Positions 1 through 57,750 of a stretch of DNA of 64,000 nucleotides are shown piece after piece (within the stretch, counting starts at the first letter, position 1; each line of letters opens with the position of its first letter). The translations under genes and the position numbers were made by a program. This DNA is from Sphagnum magellanicum (taxonomy: Eukaryota; Streptophyta; Sphagnopsida; Sphagnales; Sphagnaceae): the NCBI GenBank assembly GCA_021904315.1, contig CM038925.1:9550501-9614500 (forward strand), in the 5' to 3' direction. The notes below the pieces were generated by a model. The model worked only from the letters and a program-made list of their open reading frames with translations. It was not told the origin of the DNA and did no database searches.

Positions 1-1780
1 CTTTTACTTAATATAAGGAATAAATATAAAAACATCAACAAAAGATCGCCTTGGAAATGTTTTGTCATATCAAGTATGGCATTTGCTTAAGGGTGCTCCA
101 TTAAATGAAGTGTTTGCACTTGAAAATCTATATGGCTCATCCACAAATAATGGTGATGAATAACTTTGATGTTCAATCATACTTTCACCCATAGGGGCCC
201 ATGAAAACTAAGGGATATAATTTTCCCTACCAAATTAAATCAAATAACCATATTACCTTTTGAAATTGAACTTGGTTTAACCATGTGGTAATTTGTAGTT
301 GATCCAATGAATTTGATTTACAATTAAATAATCTCAATTTGAATTACGATTAGCAAATGCTTTTTTTTTGGTTTTGAAATTTCAATGTTTTTTCCTTCAA
401 CACAAAATATAAACACATATTTGCATGTTAACACCAATTTTGGACCATTTGAACAAAACAATGCATCATCCTTTTGTACTTAAAACTTTGGCACCCTAAA
501 TGCATATGAAGGTTGTAATTTGATCCAAAATTAATGAACATTCCCAAATGTTGACACTTGAACCCCAATTAAATAATCCTCAAAATAGTGAAATGAAAAT
601 TTGTGAAAATATGAAGTTAACATGTTGAAATTCATCATAATTATCATAGGTTACATTCTAAATAATTTCATTATTCATATCACAATATCATAGTTGATGA
701 TGGAAAAACATATAATTTCAAAATTAAAAAACCAATTTTTTTTTTTCAAAAAAAAAAGTTATTTGTTTTGTCGATGTGGAAACTGACCCTAGGCTATGAT
801 ATCAACCTTTTGTTCACACATACAACATTGTAGTTTTTTGCTTTGAGTTCCTTATCAATGTACATTAAATAAATTATATGGGATATGCTTAGTAAACATG
901 TTGGATTATATTATCATTGAAATCAATGTAAATTTTTCGTAGCTAATGTTTATTTTCATTGTTATTAGGTTATCAACTTTGGATGTTAATGACAATTTGA
1001 ATAGCTTTCTTTTCTTTTTTATTATGTCAATAGAATGGAAATCAAGAACATATTATGGTAATCGGGGGTTTTTTTTTTCAATTTTATTAAGTAGGCGGAC
1101 TTGTGGCTAATTAAAAGGTTAAGTAGTAAAGTAGATTTGTTTTTCAAATTCCTACCTAATCATGGCAACCAATTGGAACTCATTGTTAAAGTATGGTGAC
1201 ATGCAATTTTTTTCATCCAAAAAAACCCTTGTAAAATTTTCATTGGGTTTATTTTATTTATCAACATAATGCAAAAATTTCCCCCAAAAAACATTGACAG
1301 CAACTATACAACCTTATTTATTTCTTTTTTGAAATTAAAGTAATTTAAGATACATGAATAAATTATCAATATTTCCCCCAAAAAAAATGCACTTTTAAAA
1401 TACAATAAATATTATGATCACCTTGTCTATCTCACATAAAGATTAAACATATAATTATCATATATATATATATATACTTTGATATACATGCAAAATATTT
1501 GAAATTATCATTTCCAAAGTAGAACCCAATATTTTTATACCCATTGAATATAGGCTTACATAAATGTTATTTGATTCCTCATGAATCAACTTTAACAATT
1601 TCATAAAAAAAATTTAGTTTTAGTTGATGGATATTTTTAATCCAATTTATTTGGGTTTTAATTTATTTTTTTTAAAAAGGAATAATACCTACATTATCTA
1701 AACCTTTCAATTGAACATCATTTTGGACATTGAGTGTGGTTTTGGGAACAACTTGTGTACTAAAGGACTACATCATGATG

Positions 1781-2433: not shown

Positions 2434-5029
2434 ATGGCGCAGAAGCTTGGAAGAGTTAGGCAGACTTTAGGACTTCTTTACAGTAGTGTTTGCAATCGTA
2501 AACCGACTTTCAATAAGTCCCGCAACCTGAATTCCATCGTCGAGAATTTCTCTCAGAAATTAGAGCCTGGACGAGGAGGAGGAGGAGGAGGAGGAGGATT
2601 GCACTCCTCCCTACAACAGTCTCCAGAATTTTCTTCTTCGAATACGTCTGCTAATCTTTTCTTCAACAGGATTTGTTTTTCTTCATCATCTGCGCGAAGC
2701 TTGTTATCTTCTTGTGGAAGAAGAACAAGTTCCAAGTCTGGCCTGAGACTACAATTTTCTTCTTCCTCTCGAGATTTGACGACGATATCATCTCCGAGCT
2801 GTTGCTGCTCACGATTGCTTGTAACTCAGCAGCTATGGAGGACCAAACTGAATCCATTGCAAGTGTACAGAAAAGGAGGTTTGAGGAGCCAGCAGAGTGG
2901 GGCCGGAGGCTCAAGATCATATTACGTGGATCAGCGAGGAGTAGAGCATTTCAGAAGGAGAGGTCCGACTGCTTGGTTGCAAGGACCGGATAGCGGCCAG
3001 ACTCAAAAGAGGCTCATAATTGCCGTTGTCATCTTTGCAACAGGATCTGTGTATGTATACTTCACACATCTGCAGACTGTTCCATACACTCACCGCAAGC
3101 ACTTCGTGTTGATTTCACCAGATATGGAGAAATCACTGGGGGAAGCAGAATTTGACAACGTGAGTTTCTTTTCTCTTTTTTCCCATGTATACCACAATGC
3201 TTTGGTATGTGTACTGTGCATCCAGATCCTAAGCTCATGAGTGTTCAAGAGATATTGATGTCTGACACATCCAAGATGCATGAGCAGATCAAGAAGCAAT
3301 TCCGAACAAAAATACTTCCTCCAATTCATCCAGAAACCATTCGTGTGCGGCGAATTGCAAAGGAAGTGATAGAAGCAGCAATGGCAGGTGCAAAGGCACA
3401 GAACTGGGGTCAGTTAGAGCACACACATGTACCACCCTCGATATCGGATTCTGGCGGCAGCAGCAGCAGCAGCTCATGGGGTGAAGATTTAACAACAGCA
3501 AAGAAAGACAATTTGGACAGCTTGACAGCACACAAGCAAATGTATGGAACCGAGACCCTAGACGATGATCATTGGGTGGAAAAAAGCAGGAAGAAAGGGC
3601 TGGAGGAAGGATCAGAAGGCTATACAGCTCATCTTGAGAGCCTGAAATGGGAAGTCTTGGTTGTGGATCAAGACATTATGAATGCTTTCTGCCTCCCAGG
3701 AGGCAAGATTGTTGTATTTACTGGCCTTCTCAAGCACTTTCGATCTGATTCAGAGATAGCGACTGTTCTTGCCCATGAGGTGAAGCTTTTGGGGTGGAGG
3801 ATTTGGCCATCCTCTTTTCTTTCTGGATGTTTCTTATCATGTTCATGATGTTTCTCCAAAATTGTGTCTTGGGGTCAGCCAATTTTTGTTCCACTTGTTT
3901 TCTTGAGTGCTAACTGACTTCATGACTGAGTCATCCTGTTGCCAAATGCAACAGAAACTCAGGACACAGATTCTTTTGTAAAAAAATTTTCCCAATGTGT
4001 TGGGCAGATATTGTTACATACTAATCTATCTACACCATCAGGAGCTGATGAAGTTAGATGGGAGTAATGGCAGCTAGTTGCCGCCATTCATGTTGAAGGT
4101 GATGGCCTGACATGTTCTGAGTTATGCTCTCAAGGTTATGATGACACTTATTCTTGTCATGTTTGTTTTGGTTTGGCTGCCACTTGCACAATGGCCTACC
4201 CTTGAAAGCGCTTTTTGTGGAGTTTCCTCTGCAATCTCATGGATATGTTATTTAACTAAAGAAGAGTGAAACGAGATTGTGAGAATGATTATACATATCT
4301 TGGAAATCAAAGCACTGCACTGTGCGGTTGTCATCTATAGTCATTTGAGCTGTGACGATGGTGCTTTTTGGAAGCTCTAAAGTGGGTATTCGTTGACTCT
4401 ACAGGTGGGACATGTTGTGGCACGACATGTGGCAGAGAAATTGACACAGGGAGTGTGGTTAGGCTTCTTGCAGCTCCTGGTGTTATCATTCTTCTACATG
4501 CCCAATCTTGTCAACAATACCTCCAACCTGCTCTTAACGCTTCCCTTCTCCAGAAGGTGAGAATTTTGTATGGACCCTGCAAGATAAGAAACTCTCTTTT
4601 GTTTGATAGTTAGGTAACACAGGACACCTGTTTTCCAATGACAGTAGACAGTCCTGTGAGTTTTGGCTAGAAGATTTTGATAACACATACTGTAACAAAG
4701 GTTGTTTTTGCAGGAACGTACTGTTATAGGGTTCTTTTGTTCTTGCTCGCTGATTTAATTCTATGCAAGCAATTTGCAGAATGGAAATGGAAGCAGACCA
4801 TATTGGACTGTTGTTGATGGCGGCAGCAGGTTATGATCCCCAGTTGGCACCTGCATTTTATGAGAAGATGGGGAAGCTTGAAAAGCAGCCTGAGTATTTG
4901 CAATATGTGTCCACACATCCATCAGGTAAGGCACGGGGAGAGATTCTCCGGCAAACCGGCACAATGCAAGAGGCTTTGAATATCTACCGGGAAAAGATGT
5001 CAGGCCTGGGCACTGAGGGCTTCTTTTAG
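2434..5029 (+). CDS. OMA1: Mitochondrial inner-membrane metalloendopeptidase OMA1 (M48 family), 4 exons
   Basis: Exons 2434-3163, 3226-3779, 4405-4556 and 4780-5029 join to 561 codons plus TAG. OMA1 is a zinc protease of the mitochondrial inner membrane that takes part in stress-linked protein quality control. Residues 1-120 are Ser/Arg-rich with a Gly run at 48-55, as expected of a transit peptide. One membrane segment lies near 194-210. The zinc site HEVGH (427-431) is split by intron 2, with the codons for HE in exon 2 and VGH in exon 3. The third ligand is in EADHIG (483-488). The end matches the plant OMA1 C terminus (STHPSGK, then EALNIYRE). Introns 2 and 3 have good GT/AG borders. At intron 1 the better donor (3160) breaks phase, so I used the GT at 3164. 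Family membership is very secure. The exact intron 1 donor is less so. Confidence 0.93.
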
Positions 5030-13516: not shown

Positions 13517-14821
13517 CTATCCCACTGGCCTGCTCCAACTCATATCAACCAAGAAAAAATGGAGGAACAGTGGATCTGCAATGACATTCAAGGTGAAATC
13601 AAAGAGTGCACCTGCAGGTGTGTTGTCTGTTCTCTTTACATTCCCATTGCCCTGGGATTTGGATTCTGTTTCCTCATGCTTGTTGGCTGGGGCATCTTGC
13701 CCTACCACTGCTGATGCTTCTGGGGTTGCTGATGTGTCTGCAACATCTTTAGATGTGTTCCGCATTTGTTCAACCAAAGAAGCATTTGCAGCCTCCAACC
13801 TTTTACACTCTTCAGTAAACCAGGCCAGTTCATTGCGTAGAGCTAGATTTTCAACAGCAAGTGTATCAACACGTGCCCCCAGCTCTTCACATTCTGCTTG
13901 TTTCCGCAGCCTCGATCGCCTGGCAGATTCCCTGTTTGACTGTTTCCTCCGCTGCCGCTTCACCTCCCGTTCATCCTGCAGCCAAAGGTCTGCAGGTGGA
14001 GTGGCATTGACAGAAGGGCTTGCAGACATCTGCTTGCCTGTCTTGACTGGGGCATTGCCAGCATTCCAATGGTCCAAACTCATGTCCAAGCTTCCCCCAG
14101 CAGCAGGTGTGCCAGAAACTGATTGCACAGGATGGGCTCCATAGCTTTCCACTCCGGTAGCATCTGTTGCCACTTCTCCAAGGTTTACCTTCTGCCTGTT
14201 ATGTTGCTCATTTTTATTTTCCTCACTTCCCCCTGTTGAACCCTCACTCCCACTCTCATTCTCATTGTCGTCCCCATTGCTGCTATGCGACATCACCACA
14301 CCACCATTTCCTTTCTCCCCTTCACTTCCCTTGCCACCTATAATCATTGCAAGACTACCTTTGCTACCCTGGGAGCGTTTCAGTGGGCTCTGCTTCTGCG
14401 CCTGATTCTTTCCACTGTCTGTATCCTTCAACTCTGGCTTGGTTTCTGTCTGATCTGAATTCATCATCGTGTCTGACTGCAGTCCATACTGCCCATACAT
14501 AGCAGGGTGTGCATACATACCTGCCGGATGGTACATGGCACCATACTGAGGGTGAGGGGTTCCATAAGGTGGCATCATGGGCTGCCCTCCCCACATGTAA
14601 GGGTGGCCAGCAAAAGCAGCCCCTGGTGGTGGTTGTCCTCCTGCACTGTAGTAAGCTTGAAAGGCAGCTGCCCACTCTGCATAAGTCGATGGAGGTGCTG
14701 CGGTAACAGCAGCAGCAGCTCCTCCCTTACTAGCCTTACTCACTGCTGCTGTCGTCCCTGTCTCCCCTGCAGCCCCCATCACTGCCTCTTGTGCCACTCC
14801 ACCTCTTGTACCACTCTTCAC
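13517..14821 (-). CDS. GBF: G-box binding factor type bZIP transcription factor
   Basis: One open frame of 434 codons on the - strand. Residues about 42-115 are the proline-rich MFMR activation domain (TYAEWAAAFQAYYSAG, then PYMWGGQPMMPPYG, then MYHPAGMYAHP). A Ser/Gly/Glu-rich middle contains QSPLKRSQGSKGSLAMI. The basic region follows with the bZIP signature N296 to R304 (NRESARRSR), then a leucine zipper to about residue 352. This layout is that of plant group G bZIPs, nuclear factors that bind CACGTG promoter elements. In flowering plants these genes have many introns, but here MFMR, middle and bZIP sit in one exon. The last 30 residues look unlike the family. A donor (GCAG then GTGCAC at 13612/13611) just after residue 403 suggests the true end may lie in a downstream exon. 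The start at 14821 is the first ATG of the frame. Confidence 0.9.
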   Translation of the reverse strand: MKSGTRGGVAQEAVMGAAGETGTTAAVSKASKGGAAAAVTAAPPSTYAEWAAAFQAYYSAGGQPPPGAAFAGHPYMWGGQPMMPPYGTPHPQYGAMYHPAGMYAHPAMYGQYGLQSDTMMNSDQTETKPELKDTDSGKNQAQKQSPLKRSQGSKGSLAMIIGGKGSEGEKGNGGVVMSHSSNGDDNENESGSEGSTGGSEENKNEQHNRQKVNLGEVATDATGVESYGAHPVQSVSGTPAAGGSLDMSLDHWNAGNAPVKTGKQMSASPSVNATPPADLWLQDEREVKRQRRKQSNRESARRSRLRKQAECEELGARVDTLAVENLALRNELAWFTEECKRLEAANASLVEQMRNTSKDVADTSATPEASAVVGQDAPANKHEETESKSQGNGNVKRTDNTPAGALFDFTLNVIADPLFLHFFLVDMSWSRPVG

Positions 14822-15960
14822 CTCTTTCTTTTCAAAACCTTCAGCTTTTCTTTACAACAGCATCAGCAGCAGCAGCTCCACATCACCTGCCTCGTCTCTC
14901 TCACCTTGCCTGCATCATTCACACAACCAAAGTTGACAAAATTATATCAACTTCTGAGGAATCCGACAAAGCCTTAACACATCACCATCACCATCATCAT
15001 TATCGTCATCAAATCATCAATATAAGCAAATGGGAAGCTCACATCCTTAGGCTTGCTCTTTCTCCTCCTTCTTCTTCCCCTAAATTTGGAATTCCATCCA
15101 AATTGACATTACTGCCAAAACACCAACCAAGCTCAAGCCAGCAGCAGCGATTCATACTTCATAAAAGTCATTCTTCTTCTTCTACTACTACTACTACTGC
15201 CTAAGGGTATGTGTGTCTCAGCCTGAAACTTGCCACAAACTCTAGGGCATCCTTTTTCAGAGACACGAGGAACTAACTGGATTCCTTAACGATGAGATCC
15301 TCCACCCCAAAAAAAATTCAAGGAAAAAATTAGGTCAACGGCATTATCGAAAGGAAGTCCTTGATAGGAACCAAAGCACTTGATGAGTATGTATGTAGTA
15401 CTAAGAAGAAGAAGGAGAAGTTGGCGACCAATGCAACAGCAGGTAGGTACCCAAATGAAGTGAATCCGGTTTTGTATTTCGAGCGAGCGAGCGAGCGAGG
15501 AAAGACTTTGTTTTACAACAGCAGCAGCAGCAGCGTGCATGACTTAATTCGAAAGAGAAGTGAGGGGGGGAACGAAAAAAAAAAACAAAACAAAACAAAA
15601 CAAAAACAGTTGGGTGTTTGGGTCCCGGCAACGCGACGGCGACGCTGACGATGGAGAGAAATGAGATCGATCTCGTTTCCTTGCTGCGTGGATCCGATGT
15701 GGCCGCGGTGGTGGAAGCAAATTGTGCGTGCGTGGGTGTTGTGAGCGCGCGCGCGCGCGAGGGCGGGCGGGCCTCCCCTTCTCTTCCCTTCTTCGCGATT
15801 CCTTCCTGGCGCAAAGGGAGGCGCGGGAGCGACGGGCCGATACTGCTTAGTCACCTGCTTCGGCACCTGTCCAATGTCCCGTGAGTACGTACTACTCACG
15901 CCAGGGGCTGATTAACTGGACTGTCACCTCGTACGACACTGTGTCCAGGTCTCCTAATGA
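14822..15960 (-). promoter_or_regulatory. Leader and promoter region of the bZIP gene (GC-rich island)
   Basis: Immediately upstream of the bZIP start are microsatellites: CAC/CAT repeats near 14981-15005, TTC and TAC triplets at 15171-15199, GCGA repeats at 15482-15499 and CAG repeats at 15521-15534. From about 15630 to 15900 the DNA is strikingly GC- and CpG-rich for this window, with an alternating GC run near 15745-15757. An imperfect palindrome with 8-bp arms, CGTGAGTA and TACTCACG, lies at 15880-15900. I infer a long transcribed leader with a CpG-rich promoter, but the transcription start cannot be read directly. Confidence 0.5.
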
Positions 15961-22909: not shown

Positions 22910-25900
22910 TTACCTAGTGGATTCAACACCTCCAGAAGAAGGGTTCCATGTCTCGGGTTGGAAATCAGGCTTGGCATCTTTATGCACTTCGTTACTTGTT
23001 ACTTGCTCAACTCCAACATCCTCTTTGACTGAACAAGATGCTCTTAAACACCTTACATTAGAAAGTTTCTTTCAAAACCCACAATGGTGGCCCCATGGGT
23101 GGAGATTGAGGTTGCCATGATCAATGCTTGACAATTATCAAGATTCAGTTGCACCATGGTAAACAATCAGGAGGCTTCAACCGATTTTTACTCAAGAAAC
23201 AAACTATAACTGCCCAAACCATAACTTGATGCACAAGGAGAAGATTAGCCAACTACAAGACATGCTCGTGCTTACAGGCAATGTACAAGGAATGTATACC
23301 TTGAGTAGGCACTTCCTCTCCACTGACTTGCTGCAGAAAGAGTGTCATGTTGCGAGGGCTCACATCATCTGCCATCCATACTTCATCTAGTAAATACCAA
23401 CAAGGTATTCAAAGATTAACTTGCCCTTTTTGCAGCTACATCAAACTTTCTTTGGTAACTGCCACCTTCTTAATTGCAATCCTTAAGCACAACCAAAAGA
23501 GTCTTCTCTACTGTATTCTGACCATTGGACATTCCTTGCTGCAGCACTTTTGCTCTAAACCGATTTTTTTCCTCCTCCTTTTCAAGCACTGCATCCAAAA
23601 CAACAAGGCAGGAAGCAGAAACAGAACTGATGGGTTTAGGTAGAACTAGAGCCAACATTGCACAGAAAAACCAAAAAAACCACAAGCACAATAATCCTAA
23701 TCATGATAAGTAAATCATGCTGATTGCAGTACCTTGTGCATTAGTCATATTCATGATCACAACTGAACTTGCATAGGCCATGAGTATTAGGTGATGAAAT
23801 ACAAAATTACAATACTGATTCCCATTCAAATATTGATGAACCAAACCCTGGGCACATAGGTCAAAGAAACATACAGGCAACCTTCACCTTGACAGCTTTA
23901 CGATGGGCTTCCAGCTCCATCATTTCCTGGACCATTCATGGGTAGCTTGGCATGTAAGAACCTGATAGGGACAAATTCAAGAGCTCTTTCCTCACTCACA
24001 CACTCACTCAAACCTGCAGAAAATGGCAGGAACTTTGAGAACTTGGACAGCAACTTTTCTAATGGTAGTAGCAAGGATTATTGGACTTCTGGGCTTCAGA
24101 TTGGAATCTGCTAGTGAGATTGAACTATGTGACAATGGACTGATGTGTAAACTGCATGAAAGCCAGCCCCGTATTGCCCCTGGCAATTGCACACACAGTG
24201 GTGGATAGACTCACATTGACAGACAAGAGACAATGATCTCTGTTGCTATTCTGGCACAGAACACAACAAGATAATACAGAGCAAGAATGCACCTTCACAC
24301 ACGTTTGGAGATTGTTGGAAAGGTAAATGCAGGAGAAAAGCATTGAGGGACTAAATATTCCAATAACAGGAACAGCAGTACCTCAAGAGTAGGGGCTCTT
24401 TCACGCCTTCCATTCAACCAGCTGTTCCACTCAACTGCATCACTCACACCAGAGGTACTAGTTTTGAGAGAGAGTATCATTGGTATTTTTACACTAGGCT
24501 TTCATAATCAGCACGATTATCACGAATTAAAACACCTGTTACACTCATGAGAAGCTGGATGAAAGAAAGAAATTGCTTCTTTCACCGCACATCAGGATAA
24601 TTGGATTCGCACCAATGGGAACCATAAATTTCATTTACCGTATAGGTAACTGAAATTTCTCGCAAAGTTTTTAGTGCCCACTTTGGTCACCCTACTAAGG
24701 AAGGATTTGCAACTAGCTTTAATATACCCTTGACTAGAAGAAAAAGATTGCAAAATAACTGATTTATATGTTGGTTAATGAGAGAGACTAGTGGTTGATC
24801 TACTTCCCTATCCTCAATCTACATACAGCTTTGGTTTCCAGCTGGGCTGGTTCTATGGCCCTGTATGAATTAGCCGTTTATGATCCGTTTGATCCTATAA
24901 AATTTCAAATTAGACTTCGCTTTTGTCTTGTTTGAGAGTTACGACCCCTAGCTCTGCGATTGGATCATGTCATTGTCCTAAGCAGAGCTCCTATACCTCT
25001 CCTTACTAAAAAAGTAAACAACTCTTGTCGTTGATTAGGAGGTAACACCCAAAATGAGAACTAATAGCTCAAATTCGGAGGAAATCCAAGCCTCAAGGTT
25101 ATGAGCCTTGCAAGCTACCAGGCTGTTCCTTATTTTGAATCATACTATTAGCTGCTCTAAGGTCAGGAGTGAGGCACTGCTCAATTAAACCTCGAATAAC
25201 AAATGCTTGAAAAAGCTCTATTGCCATTTCCCGAGGAAATCCTCTAGAATTTCTTTGATACTATGGCCAATTCCGAACGCATACTGCACAAATTTTTATT
25301 GGCATACTTAATGATCTTAATGATCTATATGAAATATCCAGTGTGGAAGTGGGTCAACATTTCTTCAACCCTCATGAATGGCTGACATCAATTTAACAAT
25401 GCAGAGATTGGTCCCATTCAGTTTATGGTGTTAAAAGAGGGTGAAAGAGAAAAACCAAGTAAATAAAATACAGACAGAATTTTTTTTCCCTGCGCCCCAT
25501 AACTTCAATTAATGATCACCGTGGGTAAGACTCCATCCATTAATTATGATAAAAAGAATGAAGCATCTCTCTTTCTCTCTCAAACTTATTGAAAACATAC
25601 CACAAGTCACAGTTTTGCAGCTAGCGTTTCACCTTACCAGGCACTGTTGTTGGATCTGGATTGCCCTTGAATTTGATCCATCGTTTTTCTGTAACTGTCA
25701 TTTGCTACCACACAAAAGCACAATGTCAATTTCATGTAAAATGCTGCCAATAAAAGATCAAACAAAGATTCAAACAGATTCCTCATATGTGCAGGAGCTG
25801 TCACATAGGATTGCAGATTCATAAAAAAAAATTTAGGGTTATACATTTGCACTCACAAGTTGATTCAGTGAAACCCACTTGATTCAATTGGTGTGCAAAC

Positions 25901-26791
25901 TTGACAATCACAGTACCTAAGATGATAGGCACCTAAACCCTAAACCTAAACCCTAAGAGCCCGCTTGATTTGCTTGTTGTGAATGCTTGATGATTGCAGT
26001 ATCTTAACATTAAGCAAAGAAATTCCTTGGACAACTCTCAAACTGTTGACAAGATTACAAGGATCAGAACCTCAAGATGCACATCCAGAGATGCATTTCT
26101 TGAATTCAATACTTTGAAGGTGCAGAGGTGTGGGATTTCTATACTCAGTTGAAGTGATGTAATGACTGAAAAGCCACAAGCCCACGTGAATAGAAACCAC
26201 CTCATGTGATTTAAGGATTCATGAAACCTGAACCTCTTCCTCAACTTCCAGAGCCCTGAAGCATCATCTCATCAAGAGCTGAAACACTAACTTTCATTCC
26301 ACACAAATTGTCCTCGTACTTAGGTAAATGGACAAACAAAACGAGCTCTTGGAAATTTTGTGATGGTGGTTATTGCAGCAGCTTTTCAGAAAACCCTAAC
26401 ACTTGCAACATGAAAGATAGCAATCTCTGTCGAGAAGAAGAAACTCAAGATGAGTGAATGAGTCCTCTTCTTCTGGACAGCATCTTGCTTGGGAGGAACA
26501 GTAACTGTTGATGACAGCAGCAGAACCATCTGTGGAGACAGACGGGTCCGGATCCATCCGCAACCATTTTTCCTGAAGCTTCCGATTGGTGACAGACACA
26601 ACGCAAAACAGTATTGTTGAAAAGATTGAAGAATGTGAAGAGCGAGCGCCGTGAGGTTCCGTGAGAGAAGAGACTACATTACCGGCGCCATCCACGGTTT
26701 GAGACTGACGGAAGTAGGCATTGCCGGCCTTGTCCGTGCCTGCCAATTGCTTGCCATTCCTGGTCAAGAAACCAACAATCTTCGCCAACAT
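22910..26791 (-). CDS. NDUFAF2: Complex I assembly factor NDUFAF2 (mimitin/B17.2-like), 7 exons
   Basis: On the - strand, exons at 26791-26678, 26572-26544, 24457-24382, 23926-23875, 23588-23512, 23330-23300 and 23028-22910 join in phase to 498 bases: 165 codons plus TAA. The human family member has 169 residues. NDUFAF2 is a paralogue of complex I subunit NDUFA12 and helps assemble mitochondrial NADH dehydrogenase. Recognisable blocks are [10 protein letters not shown] (18-27), DPTSG then [40 protein letters not shown], and the conserved end [14 protein letters not shown]. The gene is divergent to the RH17 helicase with 246 bp between start codons. Exons 2 and 6 are only 29 and 31 bp, intron 2 is about 2.1 kb, and the exon 5 donor (GTAGAG) is weak. 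The unbroken phase over six introns argues for a functional gene. The borders of exons 2 and 5 are the least certain. Confidence 0.85.
25933..25957 (+). repeat. Interstitial telomere-like repeats in NDUFAF2 intron 2
   Basis: CCTAAACCCTAAACC and then CTAAACCCTAAG show about three units of the plant telomere motif CCCTAAA, inside the long second intron of the - strand gene. It is too short to be a former telomere. It may be a spare telo-box or a repair scar. Confidence 0.7.
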
Positions 26792-27037
26792 CTCGAGAGC
26801 GATCTTCCCACCACCACCTCCGATTCACCGTTCCCAAGTAGTCGAGCTACTGAATCTTCTGCCTTCGCAAAGCAAAGATTTCGTCGTGCGAAAGCTTGCG
26901 CAGATTGTGCGAAGCTTTGCACATGCATGGATGCAGCAGCAGGCTAGCTAGCTTCACCTCTTCTTCAAACCCTAGAAGCTTGAAACCCTAACCCTAAATC
27001 CCGTGATGAGAGAGATTGTGGTCACCCCTCTTCCTCG
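26792..27037. promoter_or_regulatory. Shared promoter of NDUFAF2 (-) and RH17 (+) with telo-boxes
   Basis: Only 246 bp separate the two divergent start codons (342 bp if the helicase starts at 27134). At 26983-26998 lies AAACCCTAACCCTAAA, two overlapping telo-boxes, with another AAACCCTAG at 26968-26976. Telo-boxes are typical of plant ribosome-biogenesis and translation genes (established knowledge), which fits the helicase. Sharing with the complex I factor is inferred from geometry. Confidence 0.7.
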
Positions 27038-29038
27038 ATGCAAGATTTCCCAATTCTTGACAGCGATCTCGCGTCTCTGGTGGCATCGAATGCTTCTGCG
27101 GTTTTGAGCTGTCTGCCTGCGTCTCGCGGAGCAATGGGGTTCAAGCGGAAGAAGTTCGGAGTGTCGCAAAATAGCGGCCTGCTGAGAAAGCGGCAGCCGC
27201 AACAGAACTCAGAAGATGCAGTGGATGTGGATTCAGGGGACGGAGGCGAGGAGGAGGAGAAGACAGTGAAGGTACTGGAGACGAGGAAGAGAGAAAAGAA
27301 AGAAGACGACGAGCTGTTGTTTGCCGTAGGACGCTTCCATGACCTAGGTCTTGCAGATTGTCTAGCAGACCATATCCATGAGAAGATGGGGTTCAGTGCA
27401 CCAACCTCGATTCAGCAAGCAGCAATTCCTCTCATTTTATCAGGGCGAGATGTGCTTGTGAATGCGGGAACAGGAACAGGTAAGACTATGGTTTACTTGG
27501 CGCCGATCATTCATGCATTGCAGTCATACTCCTCACCTCGTGTTACGCGGAACGATGGCACATTGGCGCTGGTGTTGGTGCCTACAAGGGAGCTATGTGC
27601 ACAGGTGTGTGGAGTGGCAGAGCAGGTGCTGCATCGCTTCCACTGGCTAGTCCCTGGTTGTGTCATGGGCGGTGAGAAACGTTCCAAGGAGAAAGCTCGT
27701 CTTCGCAAAGGAGTCACCATCTTGGTGGCTACACCAGGTAGATTGCTTGATCACTTGAGCAATACAGCATCCTTTCGCCACGATCGCTTAAGCTGGCTCG
27801 TTTTCGATGAAGCTGACAGATTGCTGGACCTAGGGTTTGAGAAAGATATTGAGGCGATCTTGAAGATCCTAGGTGCCAGAAAAAGTGTGCCAGGAGAGAA
27901 AAGACAACACATTCTTCTCTCTGCCACTTTGAATGATCGTGTGCAGCAGCTAGCAGCACTCAGCCTTACTGAACCTGCTACTGTAGGGTTGAATGATCTG
28001 CACCATGATGCAGCAGTGGGGACTCCTGCAACAAGAGAGGGTCTCATGGCAGTGACAAATGCCAGTAGAGGATTTATGGATGTAGGTACTTCGGAAGTAT
28101 ATCTAGAGTATAAGATTCCAGTGCAGTTGATTCAAAACTTTTACAAAGTTCCTTGCAAGCTGCGGTTGGTTGCTCTCTTAGCTCTCTTGCAGCAGAAGTC
28201 AAGAGGTGATGGTTCATGCAAGCTGGTGGTTTTTTTCTCGACTTGTGATGCAGTAGACTTTCACTACAATGTTGTGAGTGGGTTTCGGTGGTCACCAACA
28301 CCATGGAAAGGAGGAGGTGAGAGGGATGAGAGGAAGCTTTTGGGCTGTGACACATTTCGGTTACATGGTAGCATGGCACAACAGGATCGCACAGAAGCAT
28401 TTCATCAATTTGGAAGGGCTTCCTCTGCAGTCTTGCTGTGCACAGATGTTGCAGCACGAGGATTGGATTTTCAAAGTGTGTCAGGAATCGTGCAATATGA
28501 TCCTCCTGGTGATGCGAAAGAATATGTTCATAGAGTTGGAAGAACAGCCCGACTGGGTCAAAAGGGAGAGGCAGTGCTTTTTCTGCAACCAAGCGAGTCT
28601 GACTATTTGAAGGAACTGAAAAAACATGGTGTCTCACCCAAGGAGCTTCCTCTGCCACAGCTCTTAGATGGCCTTCAGGCTCGAAGGGGCAAGAAAGAAG
28701 AGACATGGGCTTCTGTGGAGATGCATCCAGTTGCAGCCCTAATGCAGAATGGTCTGGAAGCCTTCGTTGCTGGAAAGGCAGATGCAAGACTTTTGGCAGT
28801 GGATGCCTTCCGGTCTTATGTGCGGGCATATGCTGCTCATCGTGGGGAGTTGAAGTCTGTATTCCAGGTTTGGAAACTGCATTTGGGGCATGTGGCTAAA
28901 AGCTTTGGCTTGCGGGATGCACCTTCAATGTTTGGCAAGTCAGTGAACAAGCAGTCACTGAAACGGGAGAAGGAACAAAGTGTTCAAAAGAGGGTCAAGA
29001 AAAAACGCCGTCTCATTCCTGCTGCCATGGTCGACTAG
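27038..29038 (+). CDS. RH17: DEAD-box ATP-dependent RNA helicase 17 (Dbp7/DDX31 type)
   Basis: A single open frame of 666 codons. ATP-dependent RNA helicase of the Dbp7/DDX31 group, which acts in nucleolar 60S ribosome assembly. Visible motifs: Q motif around GFSAPTSIQQAAIP (118-131), motif I AGTGTGKT (143-150), Ia PTREL (182-186), Ib TPGR (232-235), II DEAD (257-260), III SAT (295-297), V TDVAARGLD (469-477), VI HRVGRTAR (498-505). The DUF4217-type C-terminal region follows at about 560-625 (HPVAALMQNGLE, then SVFQVWKLHLGHVAKSFGL), then a Lys/Arg-rich tail. All key residues are intact. The start may be 27134 (residue 33, MGFKRKKFG), because the telo-boxes lie only 40-55 bases before 27038. 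No intron interrupts the gene. Confidence 0.95.
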   Translation: MQDFPILDSDLASLVASNASAVLSCLPASRGAMGFKRKKFGVSQNSGLLRKRQPQQNSEDAVDVDSGDGGEEEEKTVKVLETRKREKKEDDELLFAVGRFHDLGLADCLADHIHEKMGFSAPTSIQQAAIPLILSGRDVLVNAGTGTGKTMVYLAPIIHALQSYSSPRVTRNDGTLALVLVPTRELCAQVCGVAEQVLHRFHWLVPGCVMGGEKRSKEKARLRKGVTILVATPGRLLDHLSNTASFRHDRLSWLVFDEADRLLDLGFEKDIEAILKILGARKSVPGEKRQHILLSATLNDRVQQLAALSLTEPATVGLNDLHHDAAVGTPATREGLMAVTNASRGFMDVGTSEVYLEYKIPVQLIQNFYKVPCKLRLVALLALLQQKSRGDGSCKLVVFFSTCDAVDFHYNVVSGFRWSPTPWKGGGERDERKLLGCDTFRLHGSMAQQDRTEAFHQFGRASSAVLLCTDVAARGLDFQSVSGIVQYDPPGDAKEYVHRVGRTARLGQKGEAVLFLQPSESDYLKELKKHGVSPKELPLPQLLDGLQARRGKKEETWASVEMHPVAALMQNGLEAFVAGKADARLLAVDAFRSYVRAYAAHRGELKSVFQVWKLHLGHVAKSFGLRDAPSMFGKSVNKQSLKREKEQSVQKRVKKKRRLIPAAMVD

Positions 29039-37368: not shown

Positions 37369-37672
37369 TATAATGTGATCACATACCTAGTTCATCTCAC
37401 TAGTAGTGTGAAGGAAAGTGGAGCCCACAAGTTTAATTAGTGGCTAACTAGCATAAGATTTAGGGTATTACCATTCAATGGGAGGAGGTGGGGAAATGAA
37501 CTCCTTTTTAGGGTTTTCCATTTTTAGGGTTTGGTTTCTGGGTACATTTTTTTTCGCGATTCGCTTCTTTGTCGCGAGTTGTGTGTCTGGTTCCTCTTGG
37601 GGGTTTCGGCGTTTCCTCAGTGCGAGAAATCGTGAACAAGACGAGGGCGTAGGGGTGAAGAAGGTCAGGCTG

Positions 37673-40600
37673 ATGGAGGAGGAACAACGAGGAGGAGGGT
37701 TAAGATTCGAGTACGATGGACAGACCATGAGTAGGGGTTTAGATACTGTCAAGCTGTTTGTGGGACAGTTGCCTAAGCAGTTGACGGAGCAGCAGTTGGC
37801 TTCTGTGTTCTCTGAAGCTGGCACCGTTTATGAAATCAATATTATCAAGGACAAGCTTACCAAACAGTCTCGAGGTCAGAGAGTGACTCTCCTGCTCTGT
37901 CTGGCTGTTATTTCTTTTTTTGGTTTTTGGTTTGGTGTTTTTTCATGGAGGTTTTATTTTTGTTTTGTTTTATTTTTTCCAGTTTTTGTGTCTTTCCTTC
38001 TATTTTGATGTTGTGAACATTGATGTGTCGGAAAAAGAAGACGAAGAAAGCATGCTTGCGTCTTTTTTCGCGTAATTAGGGTGGTGGAGTTCCGACCCCT
38101 GACATTGTCGCTTGGGTTGCCTTCATGTGCTCTGGATGTATGTGCTAGACTAGGGTTTCTTATTCCGCTTTGGTTGAAGCACCTCCTAATGGCGTTGCAC
38201 AATTTGCACAGGACGAAGTTTTATGAGAATGTCCTAGTGACTCTGGGGGGCATGTTGGTCCTATGCTGTCAATGTGTGCCAGAAAATCCGTGTCTGCTGA
38301 AAATGTCGCCAAGTATATCCTTCTACCCTGATCTCTTCCTAATTTCTACTGTCTTTCTGCAGGGTGCTGCTTCTTGACATACACCACAAGGCAAGAAGCT
38401 GACAATGCAATTGAAATTTTCCACAACAAGCGCACTCTTCCTCCGGTAAACTGTAGCTCTCTTAAGAAGGGGTTTTTAACCTGTTATTGATCACTTTTGA
38501 GTGTGCAAATAACTTGAGGGCTTCTTGTGTGAAGAACATGTCTAATGCTGGTTGTCTCATGTCTGTCATTCTGCCAAAAAAGGTGCTCTAGTGTTTGCAC
38601 TTAGGATAGGTGTCAGGTATGGTTTTGCAATTGTGCACATAAAGGTGGGTTTTCTGCATTTTACATTTTGTCTGCGGAATGTATAGTCTTATTGTTGTTT
38701 GGCACTGCCTCTTTGCATCAAATAGGTGACAAGTCCTTTGCAAGTGAAATATGCTGATGGGGAGATGGAGCGATTAGGTGAGACATCTCCAACATGTATT
38801 ATAGCAAATTGGCTAATTTGGCAACCTGAGCTGTCAACAGCTTCCAGCTTCAATTTTTACATTGATTCAGGACAGCTACATTAGGTCCACATGTCCTCTG
38901 ACTATTTGTCCTTTTGCTGAGCTTTCAAGTGTGGGTGGCAGAGCACAAGCTCTTCATTGGTATGCTACCCAAGGGAGCAACAAAAGCAGATGTCATGGGA
39001 GTGTTTCTACCCTATGGAAACATCAAGGAGCTATCTGTGATCAAAGGCTCCCAGCCGACTAGTAAAGGTAGCCCAATGTTTATAAAACTTTCAATCTCAA
39101 TTAGTGATATGGTATTTGAGCTGCAAATTGTCCTGTTCAGCTTTGTGTTTGAACTTCTTTGTAGCATTCTCAGGATCACTGCAGTATCAGCAGTATCATG
39201 ACCTCAGTGTGTGATGCTGTAGCTAGAAACTTGGACATTTCTTGCCAGAAGCTTTTTTGTACGTACTAAGAGCATGGAGTCTTCAGTCTATTAATCCAGT
39301 ATGTGATGAGAAGTGATGAGTGGGGAGTGTCATGGAATTGTGCTCTCAAGTAAGGAATGATACTGAGTTTGGGACATGGTGTCACAGCTTGTGCTTTTCT
39401 CAAATATGAGACAAAAGACCAGGCAATCTGTGCCATTGAAGCCCTCAATGGAGTGTATAAGATGGAGGTATTTTATCTTTTCTCTGCTGCTTCCTGTTGT
39501 GCATGAGCATTTGGTGAATGGATGAGAATAATTTATCTGAGCATGGAACTTGCAGATTACTATGGAGGTTGATTTCCATGACAAAGAAGAGCTTGATCTA
39601 GATGTGCACTCTTAAACTGTGCAAGTCAGTAGGAATGTGATAGGTGGCTATATGGACTAGAAAGCATCATGCGTAGTGTTCTTCACATGGATGACCAAAA
39701 TTTGCAGGATTGTCAATGTAGGATTCTTGCAGTAGAGTGTTTCAAGTAGCCAAATATCATAATGGTGCACATTTTTCAAACAGTGTGTTTTAAAGCATGT
39801 AATTGTCATGATAGGTGACTGGCTCATGAATAACTGGTTCTTGGCAGGGTTCACCATCAGCTTTGGTGGTAAAATGGGCAGATACTGAGAAAGAAAGGCA
39901 AGCCCGTAAAGTGCAGAAAGACCAGAGTGTTTCAGCAGCCCCAGTTCCTGGACAGCAGCAGCCATCATTGTTTGGTGCATTACCGATGGGTTATGCACCT
40001 GCTCCTTCTTACAATGGTTATGCCTACCAGGTCCTTAACCACCTTTGAACTTCTTTTTTTTGTGCAAAGTCATGCCAGCAGTCTTTGAATGATGTCAGTG
40101 CTAAGTTGGACTGACTTTTGTTTTCACTTTTGTACTTCAGTGAATCCACCAGGATCCATTATTTGAGGGATTTCTTTTGGCTTCTGTTATTTGGTGTGGT
40201 CAGGGATCCTCAATCTGAAGCAGCTGAACAGAATGCCCGGTGGTCTGAAGCACTCTGCTGTACACTGACTCGATGCATACCAAAAATAAGCATCTAATAG
40301 GGTTGCCACTGATTGCTCACCATATAACTATCCTTGCTGATCAGATTTTAAACTTGGATATGTGTGTGGTTGTAACAGGCAATGAACAATTATGGAGGGA
40401 TCATCTCATACCCAGCACAACCAGGGTTAGTTGGTATATCTGCAACTCTTCCTGGGGCAGGGCCAGATCTTATGACCTATGCACCTATGCAGCCTACCAC
40501 CTATGCATTTGGGGGAGGGCAGTATGGTGGGATGGCCTATCCAGGTCCAATGATGAGCCCTCACCCCACACCCTACCCTACACCTGTCTCACCAGTTGTG

Positions 40601-41164
40601 GCTATGAATCCGGGTGCAGCAGCTGTCAGGACCAGTGTTGGTCCCCAGACAGAAGGTAGGCAACCTTTCTACATATGTTCTTTCAGTGTGTATTCCCTGG
40701 ATTTCTTACAGTCAGTGGCAATAATTTAGGTCAACTGAGCAGAATATTTTGTGTGGGTTCTATCTTTGGTATACTTTCAGGGCCAGCAGGAGCCAATCTC
40801 TTCATTTATCATATACCGCCTGAGTTTGGTGATCAGGAGTTGTCTGCTGCATTTTCACCATTTGGTAATGTCATCAGTGCCAAAGTGTTTGTAGACAAGA
40901 CCACGGGTGCTAGCAAATGCTTTGGTACTTACCTTACCTCCCTCATTAGTTTGCATGTTTCTTTCTGCCCTTGTTGTGTGGTGTGCTTTTTAGGTATCTG
41001 TATCTGTTGATGATCTTTAAGTACTAAATGGTGCAGGGTTTGTAAGTTATGACTCCCCAGAAGCAGCACAAGCTGCCATCAATGTTATGAACGGCTTTCA
41101 ACTGAGCGGTAAAAGGTTGAAGGTGCAGCTGAAGCGTGATACGAAGCAAAGCAAGCCCTATTGA
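37673..41164 (+). CDS. BRN1: Bruno/CELF-like RNA-binding protein with three RRMs (BRN1 type), 9 exons
   Basis: Exons 37673-37874, 38363-38445, 38726-38777, 38942-39067, 39388-39467, 39848-40030, 40379-40655, 40781-40924 and 41037-41164 join in phase to 424 codons plus TGA. All introns have GT/AG ends. The product is an RNA-binding protein. Arabidopsis BRN1 is reported to bind SOC1 3' UTR RNA and delay flowering, but the target here is unknown. RRM1 has LFVGQLP (28-34) and RGCCFLTY (67-74). RRM2 has KLFIGMLPK and ACAFLKYE. A linker rich in Gly, Pro, Ala and Tyr follows ([15 protein letters not shown] and onwards). RRM3 starts [16 protein letters not shown], and the protein ends [15 protein letters not shown] as plant family members do. 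I chose ATG 37673 (MEEEQRGGG) because the in-frame upstream extension from 37478 is hydrophobic and unlike the family. Confidence 0.93.
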
Positions 41165-52139: not shown

Positions 52140-52870
52140 CCAAAACCAGAGACCTAATAATTCTTTGTCATGTCAACTCTCCTCCTCTCCTTGTACAAAA
52201 TTGGCTTACACAAGACACAAAAGAAATCCCAAAACTCAAAATCTTGAGACAATGACTGAAATCTAGAGAGAGAGACAAGAAGAATCAAAATCTAGAGAAT
52301 TTAATTGAATGGCAAAGAAGGCAGGTTGAGAAGACAAGAAGATCAAAAAAATCAAGACTCAAATCTAGAGACTTTGAATGAATGGAAAAGAATGGGGGTT
52401 CAGAAGCCAGAAATTCAAGTCTGGAGATTTTGATTGAACGTGAAGAAAGAAGCTAGGGTTGAGAAGGCATAAAAAATCTCAAGACTAAAATCTTCTACAG
52501 ACTTTGATTGAAAGGAAAAAGAATGGGATTGAGAAGACAAAAAAAATCAAAGTCTGGAGAAAGACGAAGCAAGGGTTGAAAAGACAAAAAACATCTCTCA
52601 AGACTCAAATCTAGAGACTTTGATTGATTAGAAAAGAATGAATGGGTTGAGAAGACAGAAATCCCAAGTCTGCAGATTTTGATTGAATGCGAAAAAAGAA
52701 GATACTAAGGTTTGAGAAGGGGAAAAAAAAATCTTAGGACTCAAATCTAGAGACCTTGAATTGAATGCCATGCATGGGGTTTCTTGAGACTTTAGACAGA
52801 AATCTGAATTGAATGCGGGGGAAGAAGGTAGGGTTGAGAAGAGGAGGAACAGGGAAGGGTTTAGGGGTTG
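52140..52870 (-). repeat. Degenerate tandem repeats in P450 intron 1 (expanded copy)
   Basis: Repeated words such as CAAATCTAGAGACTTTGATT, GGGTTGAGAAGACA and AAGTCTGGAGA recur between about 52240 and 52790. The same words, fewer in number, occur on the other strand in intron 1 of the intact P450 gene (about 54900-55110: CTCTAGATTT, TCTTCTCAACCC, CAATCAAAGAGTCTAGA). The array is therefore ancestral intron sequence that has grown in this copy. Shared sequence (AAGAATTATTAGGTCTCT) continues to about 52150 and then similarity stops. Confidence 0.7.
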
Positions 52871-52873
52871 AAC

Positions 52874-53194
52874 TTGTCCATATTTGGCCACACGAGGATT
52901 GAGAAATTCCGCAGATCTGTTGGCTTGGGTCAGACGTAGGAACTCCAAAGTCTCTCCCAAAAGAGGAAGCCCCAAGCTCCCCAGAGGTAGAGGTGCCTTC
53001 TTGTTGGAAGATGTTCTTGCCTTTGATTCCTTCAACAAAACATAGTGCCACCACCACCCACAGACAATTGCCACTACTACTGTAATAATCCCCACTGCCA
53101 AACCCACTTTGCTTGACACCAGCATGGAACCACCAGCAAACATGTTATTGCTGTTTTTACTGTAATCCCAGTGCACCCCATCATCATCATCCAT
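52874..53194 (-). pseudogene. Orphan first exon of a duplicated CYP85-clan P450
   Basis: A 107-codon exon on the - strand (53194 to 52874) ending at donor GTTCAA. It is a clear paralogue of exon 1 of the neighbouring + strand P450: both share VSSKVGLAVGI, a Trp-rich membrane anchor, GLPLLGETLE, SAEF and RVAKYGQ, with the same splice position. The hinge reads PLPLGSLGLP instead of PLPPGSFGLP. No exon 2 to 6 follows on the - strand before the MULE relic begins at 51858. The copy therefore appears truncated within intron 1, unless its remaining exons lie outside this window. The exon itself has no stop. Confidence 0.8.
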
Positions 53195-53429
53195 TTGCAG
53201 TTTCCTTGGACAAAACCCTGGTCTACTACCAAGCAGAAATACGAGGCCTAATGAGTTTTATACTTCTGGAGTTGGATTCTCATGTAAGGCAAGAGCAGTA
53301 TGATGAGGCAAGTACCTTCGAGTTTTGGATCAAATGTGGGTGATGGGATAGACTTTCTGTCATCATTCCACCAATCAGCTGAAAATTTGATTTGTGTTGC
53401 AGTAAAAGAAAGTATTTTCAATGTTCAGC

Positions 53430-53955: not shown

Positions 53956-54492
53956 GTTTGTTAGTTGGTCTCATCATCATGTCACCTATCCTGTACAAAG
54001 ATGCCAAGTCCTTGGGCTTCCCCAGCTGCCATGACAAGAGCAGCGGAAGCTCCAATCACAAGATCAGCTTCCCCTACCATTAGGTTCTCTTCCCATCATT
54101 TTGGCTGCTGTGATCACAGGTACACATCACACAGGTACATTGTGTGTGTCACAAAGGTACACAGTGTACCTGAGATCATAGCAGCCTAACGGGAAGCCGC
54201 CTTTGACATAGCGCCTTGTTTCTTGTTGTGTGGACAAGCATTTATGGATTTGAGAGTTGCAACTCCGGAGAAAATATGTAGATAGTCAATGTTAGGAATT
54301 CTGGGAATGTCACTTTGTGTTGAGAGTCACAGATTGACTAAGAGCTCTCATAGTTCCTAGTGCAGTAGCTCTCAATGCTTGACCTGTAAAGTTGTAAGGT
54401 GACTGTGATCACAGCAGCAGCCTAACGGAAAGCGTACAAGAGCTTCTTCTTCTTCTTTTTGTGAAAGGAGAAGATTTGTAAGGAAGCTGGAA

Positions 54493-57400
54493 ATGGGTGA
54501 TTATGGGGTGCACTGCGATTACAGCAACAGCAGTAGTAAGAATATTTTTGCTACTGGTTTAATGCAGGTGTCAAGCAAAGTGGGCTTGGCAGTAGGAATT
54601 GCACTAGGGCTCGCATCTGTCTGTGGGTGGTGGTATGCTGCTTTGTTGAGGAGATCAGAGGCAAAAAATTCCAACAAGAAGTCACCTCTACCTCCCGGTA
54701 GCTTTGGGCTTCCTCTTTTGGGAGAGACTTTGGAATACCAACGACTTATACAAACCAACAAATCTGCAGAATTTTTCACTTCCCGTGTGGCCAAATATGG
54801 ACAGGTTGGAGCCCAAAACCCCTTCCCTCCTTGTTCCTCCTCCTCCTCCTCCTCTTTTTTTCATGAACCCCAGCTTCTTCTCAACCTCTGCATTTATTCC
54901 TTACATTCAATTCAACGTCTCTAGATTTGGGTCCTGAATTTTTGTGTCTTCTCAACCCATCTTTATATTACACTCAATCAAAGAGTCTAGATTTTGAATC
55001 TTGATATTTCTGTGTCTTTCCAACTCCTGCTTCTTCTTTCCCATTCAATCAGAGGCTCTAGAGTTATTGAGTCATGTCTCTTCAATTGAGTCTTGGATTT
55101 TCTGTCTTGTTGTGCAAGCAATTTTCTATAACGAGGAGAATTATTAATTCACACAACAAAGAATTATTAGGTCTCTAGTTTTGTTATTGTGTTTCTGTTG
55201 GGAATTAGCAATTTTCATACCATGGCCCCACTGTCAAGCATCCCAATAGTTCAAATTCTGCGGAGGTTTCAGTCACAGCTGGTCAGTAGTACTGCATCTG
55301 CATCTGGATGCATGTAATTTCAACAGAGATTCTTAAGTTTTTCAAACCTTTTTAGTTTCCTTGAGACAATTTTGTTCTCACAAGATGTGAATTGGTTTTG
55401 GAATTTATGCAAATTCAGTATGTATGTACTAAGTATAGTCTCCACATCATCATTATAATGACATATCTACTTGATTTTTTTAAGATTGTATGCAAGTGTG
55501 TGTGTGTGAAACTATATGAGATTGGCAAAATTCCGTAATGCAATAATAGTTCGTGACCACAATCATATTAGTTTTGTGATGAATTTTTGTGGCAAACTTG
55601 GTCCAGGTATTCAAGACCCATCTTCTCTTTTCTCCAGCAGTGTCTGTGGGTGCACCAGATGGAAACAAGTTTTTGTTTGCAAATGAGAACAAGCTCGTGC
55701 AAAACTCATTGCCATCACCTACAAAAAAGCTATTTGGCCCAAATAGCCTTCTAAACAAAACAGGCATAGAACATAGGTAACCCACCCTTCTTCCCATATC
55801 CTAACAATTTCATTCCTCTATGTATGGTTGTAGGAGTGATGTTGTAAGCTCTTGACTTGATAAACATTGAGAAGTAGACTAACACATTATTCATCTCTTT
55901 TTCAAAGTTTCTTTTCAAAATTGAACTTTAAATGCTGACACATCAATATCCAGGAGAGTTATGATCGATTGAGATTATGAATTGATAAGGTTAATTTAAG
56001 GATATGTTTGGTTTTTGGATGTACCTAGGCACGCCCGTCGTCTTTTCACATCCTTCTTTGGTCCAGATGGCCTACAACACTTTGTGCCTAGGATGGACAA
56101 AATGGTGAGATCCCATTTTGTCCAATTCTGGGAAGGGAAGGACGAAATTATGGCCTTCACAACAGTGAAACAATTTACATTTGCTTTGGCAGCTGATCTT
56201 TTTTTCAGTCTCATAGATGGCCCTCAATTCCAGTCTTTGCGACATGATATTGAGACATTTGCGAAAGGGATTGTACACCTACCAATTAATTTTCCTGGCA
56301 CTGTCTACTACAATGCCAAGCTGTCTCGGGATCGAGTTCTTCATATTCTTGACACAATTATATGTCAAAGGCGCAAGGTAAATGAGATGAACTCTTGCAA
56401 AAAAAAATCCTTGTTTGATGATCAAAGTTATTTGAAGGTGTTTTCTAGGCTTCTTTTGTGCATTTAGTTATCTTGACATTCTAGGTCTTATGATGAATTT
56501 CATAGATGCTCATATAGTTGCCTTTGCAATTGTGTGTGCCTTGGGTTATGAATCCTCTATCTTGGTGTAGGGTATTAAATTGGAATTTGTGTACATTTAT
56601 CATCATGTGTGGTAGGACATGCAAGAAGGGAAGGTTTCTTCAAACCATGATCTTTTATCAGTAATGCTCAGCACACATGATGATCAAGACCAGTTGGCCA
56701 CAAATGAAGACATCAATGATAATATTTTGTTGTTTTTGTTTGCTGGCCATGACACGAGTGGTGGCACTCTTGCTGGTGTACTTAAGTACCTATTTCTTAA
56801 TCCACAATGCTTACAACAAGTCATCAAAGGTAGATTGATGTTGTTACATTATTCAAGTGACATTAGTGTAGATTTGGTAATGCAACTCTACACTCCCATT
56901 GACAATGGACTCCAATTTTATATATTCATTCCTCTCTCTTTTTATAATCACAAATGAGTGTTTGATTTTTTTTGAAGGCTTACAATCTTCTTGCATAATT
57001 TACAGAGCAAAAGGAGATAGCAATTGCGAAGGCTCCTGGGTCATCACTAAATTGGGATGACACACGGAAAATGAAGTACACATGGCAAGTGATCCAAGAG
57101 TGTTTACGCCTACAACCTGGAGTGCCAGTGGGGTATCGACAAAGTATTACAGAATTTGAATACAAAGGATTCACAATTCCAAAAGGCTGGAGGGTAAGTT
57201 GATGAGGCTTCAACAAGCTACTACTTGTTTATGTTTAAAACCATTCAATCCTTACAAATTTTTGGTGTGATAAAAACCATGACATTTGTAGATACTTACA
57301 CTAGGCAAATTTTCTCAATGTCTTGGAAGTCATTTTTAGGCAGTTGACATTTCCTTAACATGACTAAAGTTGTTGTGATATCTTTTGTGCTGAAAACATG

Positions 57401-57750
57401 CATCCCTCCTTTTTTTCGTTTTTTTGGGTGTTGCATAGGTACTTTGGCACGTTGCGCGCTCACATTTCTCACCACAATTTTTTCCAAATCCAGAGAGATT
57501 TGATCCAGATCGGTTTGAAGGACTAGGGCCACCACCGTTCACTTACATACCGTTTGGAGGTGGTCCACGGATATGTCTTGGCATGGAGTTTGCACGCACT
57601 GAAATGGTTGTGTTCTTGCACTACTTGGTGCTCAATTATGAATGGTCAATGGTTGACCCCAATGAGACACTCATTCGGAATCCACTTCCTAGGTTCCAGA
57701 AAGGGCTTCAACTCAAAATTCATAAGAAAGAGCCTTTGGAATTTCTGTAG
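54493..57750 (+). CDS. Cytochrome P450 of the CYP85 clan (CYP716-like), 6 exons
   Basis: Exons 54493-54804, 55607-55776, 56029-56377, 56616-56829, 57006-57193 and 57439-57750 join in phase to 514 codons plus TAG. This is a haem-thiolate monooxygenase anchored in the ER. The N-terminal membrane helix spans about 27-52, followed by the hinge PLPPGSFGLPLLGETLE. The I-helix AGHDTS is at 320-325, the K-helix E380-C-L-R383 (ExxR), PERF at 429-432, and the haem loop FGGGPRICLG at 450-459 with Cys457. All catalytic features are intact. The PPGSxGLPLLGET hinge and FGGGPRxCxGxEFAR loop place it in the CYP85 clan, whose members hydroxylate triterpenes, steroids, diterpenes or related lipids. The subfamily and substrate cannot be told from sequence alone. 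A second copy lies head-to-head upstream. Confidence 0.94.

Follow-up and report, generated by a model that had tools for sequence, protein, structure and literature searches.

The minus strand of the analysed window, a 64,000-nucleotide stretch of the Sphagnum magellanicum genome (C19:9550501-9614500), carries a split gene that we read from its sequence, with a probability of about 0.9, as an ordinary plant NDUFAF2, a mitochondrial complex I assembly factor, encoded in eight exons. The family is known and the gene is an ordinary member of it; what is new is a corrected and extended gene model. The preferred exons measure 109, 57, 53, 52, 66, 87, 115 and 64 bp, are separated by seven GT..AG introns of 136-1203 nt and together give 603 nt encoding 200 aa between 26791 and 22576 (-). 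A preliminary description had proposed a complete gene of 165 codons in seven exons, two of them only 29 and 31 bp long. The central proposal, that small exons make up an NDUFAF2 gene, is supported by matches to the NDUFA12/NDUFAF2 family and to the PDB. Completeness in seven exons is not supported: the proposed stop lies inside a splice donor, and an eighth exon follows.

Identity of the joined protein

The gene is invisible in any single open frame, as had been described: none of the 14 frames of at least 150 aa in the window spans it. The family signal emerges when exons are joined. The 165-aa protein extended by exon 8 (185 aa) matches PF05071, which we take to cover both paralogs, NDUFA12 and NDUFAF2, with E = 2.2e-11 and 44.9 bits against a Pfam cut-off of 23. 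The matched part, residues 16-90, is identical across all models. In the PDB (23 sequences at E up to 1) the top match of this protein is the NDUFAF2 chain 8ca5_t (1.9e-8, 37.8 bits), presumably the mouse protein NDUFAF2, also called B17.2L or mimitin. The same chain is the top match of the 165-aa model (5e-9, 39.8 bits). A search of NCBIfam returned three families, every one of them under its cut-off, the best being bacterial NDUFA12 with 50.6 bits against 135.

The gene might instead encode the plant NDUFA12 subunit itself. PF05071 would, as we understand it, capture either paralog, and with the 200-aa model the NDUFA12 chain 9f5x_N (34.5 bits) draws level with NDUFAF2 8ca5_t, which lies 0.2 bits behind at 34.3. 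Yet plant NDUFA12 is not the nearest sequence: Brassica NDUFA12 (7a23_U) scores far lower than NDUFAF2 with every model (22.8 bits for 185 aa, 23.2 for 165 aa and only 22.5 for 200 aa). Moreover, NDUFAF2 aligns with the charged stretch that follows the domain and with the TF-x-PG-x-W end, and a clear NDUFA12 gene (RHRWVEYADYKNYNASSVPPEWHGWLHY) sits elsewhere on the same contig and fits that subunit. An NDUFA12 identity is thus extremely improbable, and NDUFAF2 is retained in what follows.

Exon borders in the first half of the gene

Splice sites were scored with matrices built from generic consensus frequencies and ranked against the 6834 GT and 7171 AG sites of the window, both strands included. 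Exons 1 to 4 (-) connect in phase at GT..AG borders, so that the described preservation of phase stands for this part of the gene. Exon 1 (26791-26683, 109 bp) begins with the ATG at 26791 and ends at the donor CCG/GTAATG; it was also matched in the search of the plant's own genome. Exon 2 (25694-25638, 57 bp) has the strongest donor of the gene, CTG/GTAAGG. It is followed by exon 3 (24434-24382, 53 bp), with a middling acceptor, and by exon 4 (23926-23875, 52 bp), in which the charged stretch after the domain begins; by eye, residues 72-105 look charged and helix-like. Three acceptors are not strong, namely those of exon 2 (43.5% of AG sites score as high), exon 3 (22.6%) and exon 7 (17.1%).

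The middle of the gene

The length of 165 codons is reproduced by exons of 109+57+53+52+77+31+119 nt, the last one run to the TAA, and none of these measures 29 bp. This arrangement ends exon 5 at 23512 with the donor ACA/GTAGAG, which is equalled or exceeded by 62.8% of GT sites. Eleven bases upstream lies ATG/GTCAGA, in the top 3.8% of GT sites, and the preferred exon 5 (23588-23523, 66 bp) ends there. With this donor, the best open chains lengthen exon 6 upstream to 23386, in frame, and yield the preferred 87-bp form (23386-23300, -). For the 31-bp exon (23330-23300) the acceptor is good, within the top 3.9% of AG sites, and the donor fair, within the top 6.4% of GT sites; the exon is probably the 3' part of the 87-bp exon, an artefact of an internal AG. 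The 54-nt extension (23384-23331) is strongly codon-like: of 1316 open 54-mers, taken as overlapping windows from the gene's own introns, just 0.9% reach its level under a codon table made from the DEAD-box and bZIP open reading frames of the window and exons 1-5. Angiosperm NDUFAF2 linkers carry a stretch resembling P-D-L-x-S-F-V-R-Q, to which NMTLFLQQ in the extended exon 6 would bear some likeness; this was not used in any score.

All chains between exons 5 and 7 with introns of at least 60 nt and at most two middle exons were enumerated, which gave 2971 open chains (1, 187 and 2783 with none, one and two middle exons, respectively). A 29-bp exon occurs in 115 of them, the best of which reaches -8.7 where the preferred chain has +4.3, so that no credible exon of this size was found between exons 5 and 7. 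The use of some form of extended exon 6 is rather probable. Its exact shape is less firm, and it is possible, at clearly lower odds, that exon 6 is skipped or bounded differently, with a start at 23368 or an end at 23276. Chains with such borders and the chain that skips the exon all stay open, with 171-208 aa and the same ends, and by splice sites the form 23386-23276 scores slightly above the preferred 23386-23300 (4.7 vs 4.3), followed by 23368-23300 (3.0) and the skip, to whose score the 23523 donor alone contributes (2.2). Against these variants, the additional segment 23299-23276 encodes GIHSLYIA, by eye unlike the polar linker, and 23384-23331 is, as noted, strongly codon-like.

Comparison with known proteins pulls in two directions. 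The score against 8ca5_t favours the shorter linker of the 165-aa model over that of the 200-aa model, and the longer model aligns better with the Yarrowia NDUFAF2 (E = 0.00096 vs 0.006). The unresolved linker is reported to have about 35 residues in mouse NDUFAF2 (PMC10897435) and about 100 in Yarrowia (PMC8161149, PMC10910544, PMC8762328), and because linker length varies in this way among known NDUFAF2 proteins, neither comparison settles exon 6. The view that the seven-exon form is right as described, with 165 aa, an end at 22910, a 77-bp exon 5 and a true 31-bp exon 6, draws on its having the highest 8ca5_t score of the models, on a TQV-x-G match to that chain within its linker and on the quality of the borders of the 31-bp exon. 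It is nevertheless very unlikely, since it requires the poor donor ACA/GTAGAG, stops on a TAA within a good splice donor and omits an in-frame exon that holds the closest match to the family C-terminus.

The smallest exon accordingly measures 52 bp in the preferred model, as opposed to 31 bp in the earlier one. In the accessible text of the sources, the wider bound for a microexon is given as up to 51 nt (MEPDB), and exons of at most 15 nt form the class reported to be often missed (PMC8831610). An exon of 31 bp would fall within the former bound and above the latter; the preferred exons of 52-115 bp fall within neither.

The C-terminal end

Exon 7 (23028-22914, -, 115 bp) carries a first C-terminal motif. 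The TAA at 22912-22910, at which the seven-exon model stops, belongs to the sequence ..CACTAG/GTAAATC, whose donor GTAAAT ranks in the top 3.3% of the 6834 GT sites. Exon 8 (22639-22576, -, 64 bp), outside the span originally reported, has an acceptor at 22639 in the top 3.6% of the 7171 AG sites. It is in frame, completes the split codon and ends in ..GDTFKPGTWQPPS before the stop TGA. If it is spliced in, the protein finishes with the family-like TFKPGTWQPPS-stop and hence with the TF-x-PG-x-W block. The family's C-terminal block had been described as present within the seven exons; a degenerate copy is indeed there, and the closer one, TFKPGTWQPP, lies in exon 8. The pattern F-x-PG-[TSR]-W, picked after exon 8 had been seen, occurs once in the six-frame translation of the window, in exon 8; 100 Markov simulations gave 0.04 occurrences on average.

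Known NDUFAF2 proteins provide a partial comparison for this end. The tail of 8ca5_t reads GKTFQPGSWTPEDGK, and the exon 8 block of the 200-aa model aligns with its FQPGSW, which by itself contributes only 4.6 bits. In the phmmer search with the 185-aa model, the 8ca5_t tail was paired with the exon 7 block and not with exon 8. The alignment of the 200-aa model with the Yarrowia NDUFAF2 (6rfq_k) runs from end to end (13-198 to 36-229, E = 0.00096); with the 165-aa model the alignment stops at residue 95 (E = 0.006) and leaves the C-terminus unaligned. When the tails of exon 8 and 8ca5_t were combined into a profile, it retrieved 8ca5_t at 3.8e-14, a value that is not independent because this chain is part of the profile, followed by an unrelated protein (0.49). 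No PDB match at E up to 10 was obtained for the last 74 aa of the 185-aa model alone. Since C-terminal queries with exon 8 score weakly, the exon is supported by its borders, frame and motif and not by database score. On these grounds it probably carries the C-terminus of the NDUFAF2-like protein.

Both ends could also be in use, with exon 8 in the normal mRNA and retention of intron 7 leading to a shorter one-hook isoform ending in ..GVESTR-stop. Translation would then stop after 180 aa with the first motif kept, and only one codon would be added, the fewest for any of the seven introns (4 to 95 for the others). However, a transcript that retains intron 7 is hypothetical, and intron retention is in general common and mostly functionless. 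The use of both ends is unlikely, and the eight-exon form with the single end in exon 8 is preferred.

A doubled C-terminal motif

The gene has a single unusual feature: in the eight-exon model the C-terminal hook motif, F-x-P-x-TW-x-P, is found twice. The degenerate exon 7 copy spans residues 164-173 (22963-22934, -) and contains FQPETW; the exon 8 copy, FKPGTWQPPS, spans residues 191-200 (22608-22579, -) and is the closer family match. The two share 24 of 30 coding bases. When both peptides were back-translated at random with the codon usage of this window, the mean was 18.7 identities, and 0.24% of 20,000 trials reached 24. The best 33-base match between exon 7 and exon 8 has 26 identities, compared with at most 21 in 300 shuffles. 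These figures suggest that a short DNA duplication produced the pair; the ends of the blocks were chosen by eye, so that the duplication is suggested rather than proven. A bolder proposal, for which we see little likelihood, is that this duplication created two tandem hooks that both grasp NDUFS1, and that retaining or removing intron 7 decides whether a one-hook or a two-hook factor is made.

Genomic context

Further copies and relatives were sought in the 439-Mb assembly (31 contigs). Two protein queries, the N-terminal 107 aa at a limit of E = 0.001 and the C-terminal 88 aa at a limit of E = 10, each matched three places, all of them exons of the NDUFAF2 gene, and no other copy. A search with PF05071 returned one place, C19:2124356-2124499, whose reading frames look like those of a typical NDUFA12 subunit. 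This search missed the NDUFAF2 gene with its short exons, and other split copies could thus escape it as well. As judged from these matches, the plant appears to have both paralogs, NDUFA12 and NDUFAF2. The NDUFA12 gene (C19:2122856-2125999) shares the contig with NDUFAF2 at a distance of about 7.4 Mb, and its family match contains one in-frame TGA, perhaps within an intron. One scan of viral contigs with the N-terminal 107 aa produced 19 pattern matches and no relative.

A DEAD-box helicase gene stands head to head with NDUFAF2. Its long single open reading frame (26984-29038, +) encodes an RNA helicase with an SPB4-type C-terminal extension, and its earliest possible in-frame start codons, ATG at 27038 and at 27134 (+), are about 250-340 bp away. 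The gap at 26792-27037 is a candidate shared promoter. Intron 1 of NDUFAF2 contains a short interstitial TTTAGGG-like run of the plant telomere type at about 25930-25960.

Several other genes were recognised in the window. A G-box-binding bZIP protein with an MFMR domain is encoded at 13517-14851 (-); MFMR being a domain of plants, this points to a land plant. Two open reading frames at 3156-5029 (+) match M48 metallopeptidase and are possibly exons of one gene, which we take to be OMA1-like. Three more at 37457-41010 (+) match RRM, one of them just under the Pfam cut-off; they perhaps form one gene, presumably CELF/BRUNO-like. Cytochrome P450 matches were obtained for two plus-strand frames, 56616 and 57439, in the region 54409-57750. 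The frames at 54409 (+) and 52628 (52628-53257, -) look alike by eye and have no Pfam match; each may be the first exon of one member of a divergent pair. Neither the Rfam nor the tRNA scan of the window gave a hit.

Comparison with known NDUFAF2 proteins and possible function

The moss protein resembles 8ca5 chain t in its NDUFA12-like domain, an EKR block, the P-x-EW-x-x-W motif, a PT-x-EE stretch and the TF-x-PG-x-W-x-P C-terminus. It differs by lacking two short inserts of that chain and by having, in the preferred model, a longer linker; in addition, a further hook-like block precedes its C-terminus. With N7BML of Yarrowia lipolytica (6rfq chain k) it shares the domain order over the full length; the similarity is low, and the Yarrowia tail is KPAEWTP, without the TF-x-PG start. 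N7BML is described as having a long unresolved linker followed by a short C-terminal coil (PMC8762328). The likeness to NDUFA12 (B17.2, PF05071) is confined to the N-terminal domain, where matches stop at about residue 92, and NDUFA12 has a separate gene in the same genome.

In reported mouse and Yarrowia structures, NDUFAF2 occupies the future NDUFA12 position, with a helix overlapping the NDUFS6 site and the C-terminal end on NDUFS1, a part of the N module, and a role as a lasso or guide has been proposed (PMC10897435, PMC10910544, PMC8161149). Another report prefers a checkpoint role, in which the N module is not recruited by NDUFAF2 alone (PMC8762328). We infer the function and mitochondrial location of the moss protein by analogy. 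Going by its homologues, the NDUFA12-like domain at the N-terminus would occupy the spot on the Q module that NDUFA12 takes later, and the helix following the domain would fill the NDUFS6 site. The flexible linker would bear the C-terminal TF-x-PG-x-W-x-P hook, gripping NDUFS1 while the N module docks, and NDUFA12 would then replace NDUFAF2.

For plants, possible NDUFAF2 genes have been identified (PMC8762328), and NDUFS6 may bind or assemble regardless of NDUFAF2 (PMC7447434). In the literature searched, no paper on the Arabidopsis locus At4g26965 was found. The outcome of the present analysis is a checkable eight-exon model of a plant NDUFAF2, otherwise a routine annotation correction. In the accessible parts of the plant complex I reports, NDUFAF2 is not observed on the complex (PMC7447434, PMC8762328), which makes it important to have the C-terminus right in tagging or complementation tests. 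A 165-aa product would miss the end matching the part that is bound to NDUFS1 in the reported Yarrowia and mouse structures (PMC10897435, PMC10910544).
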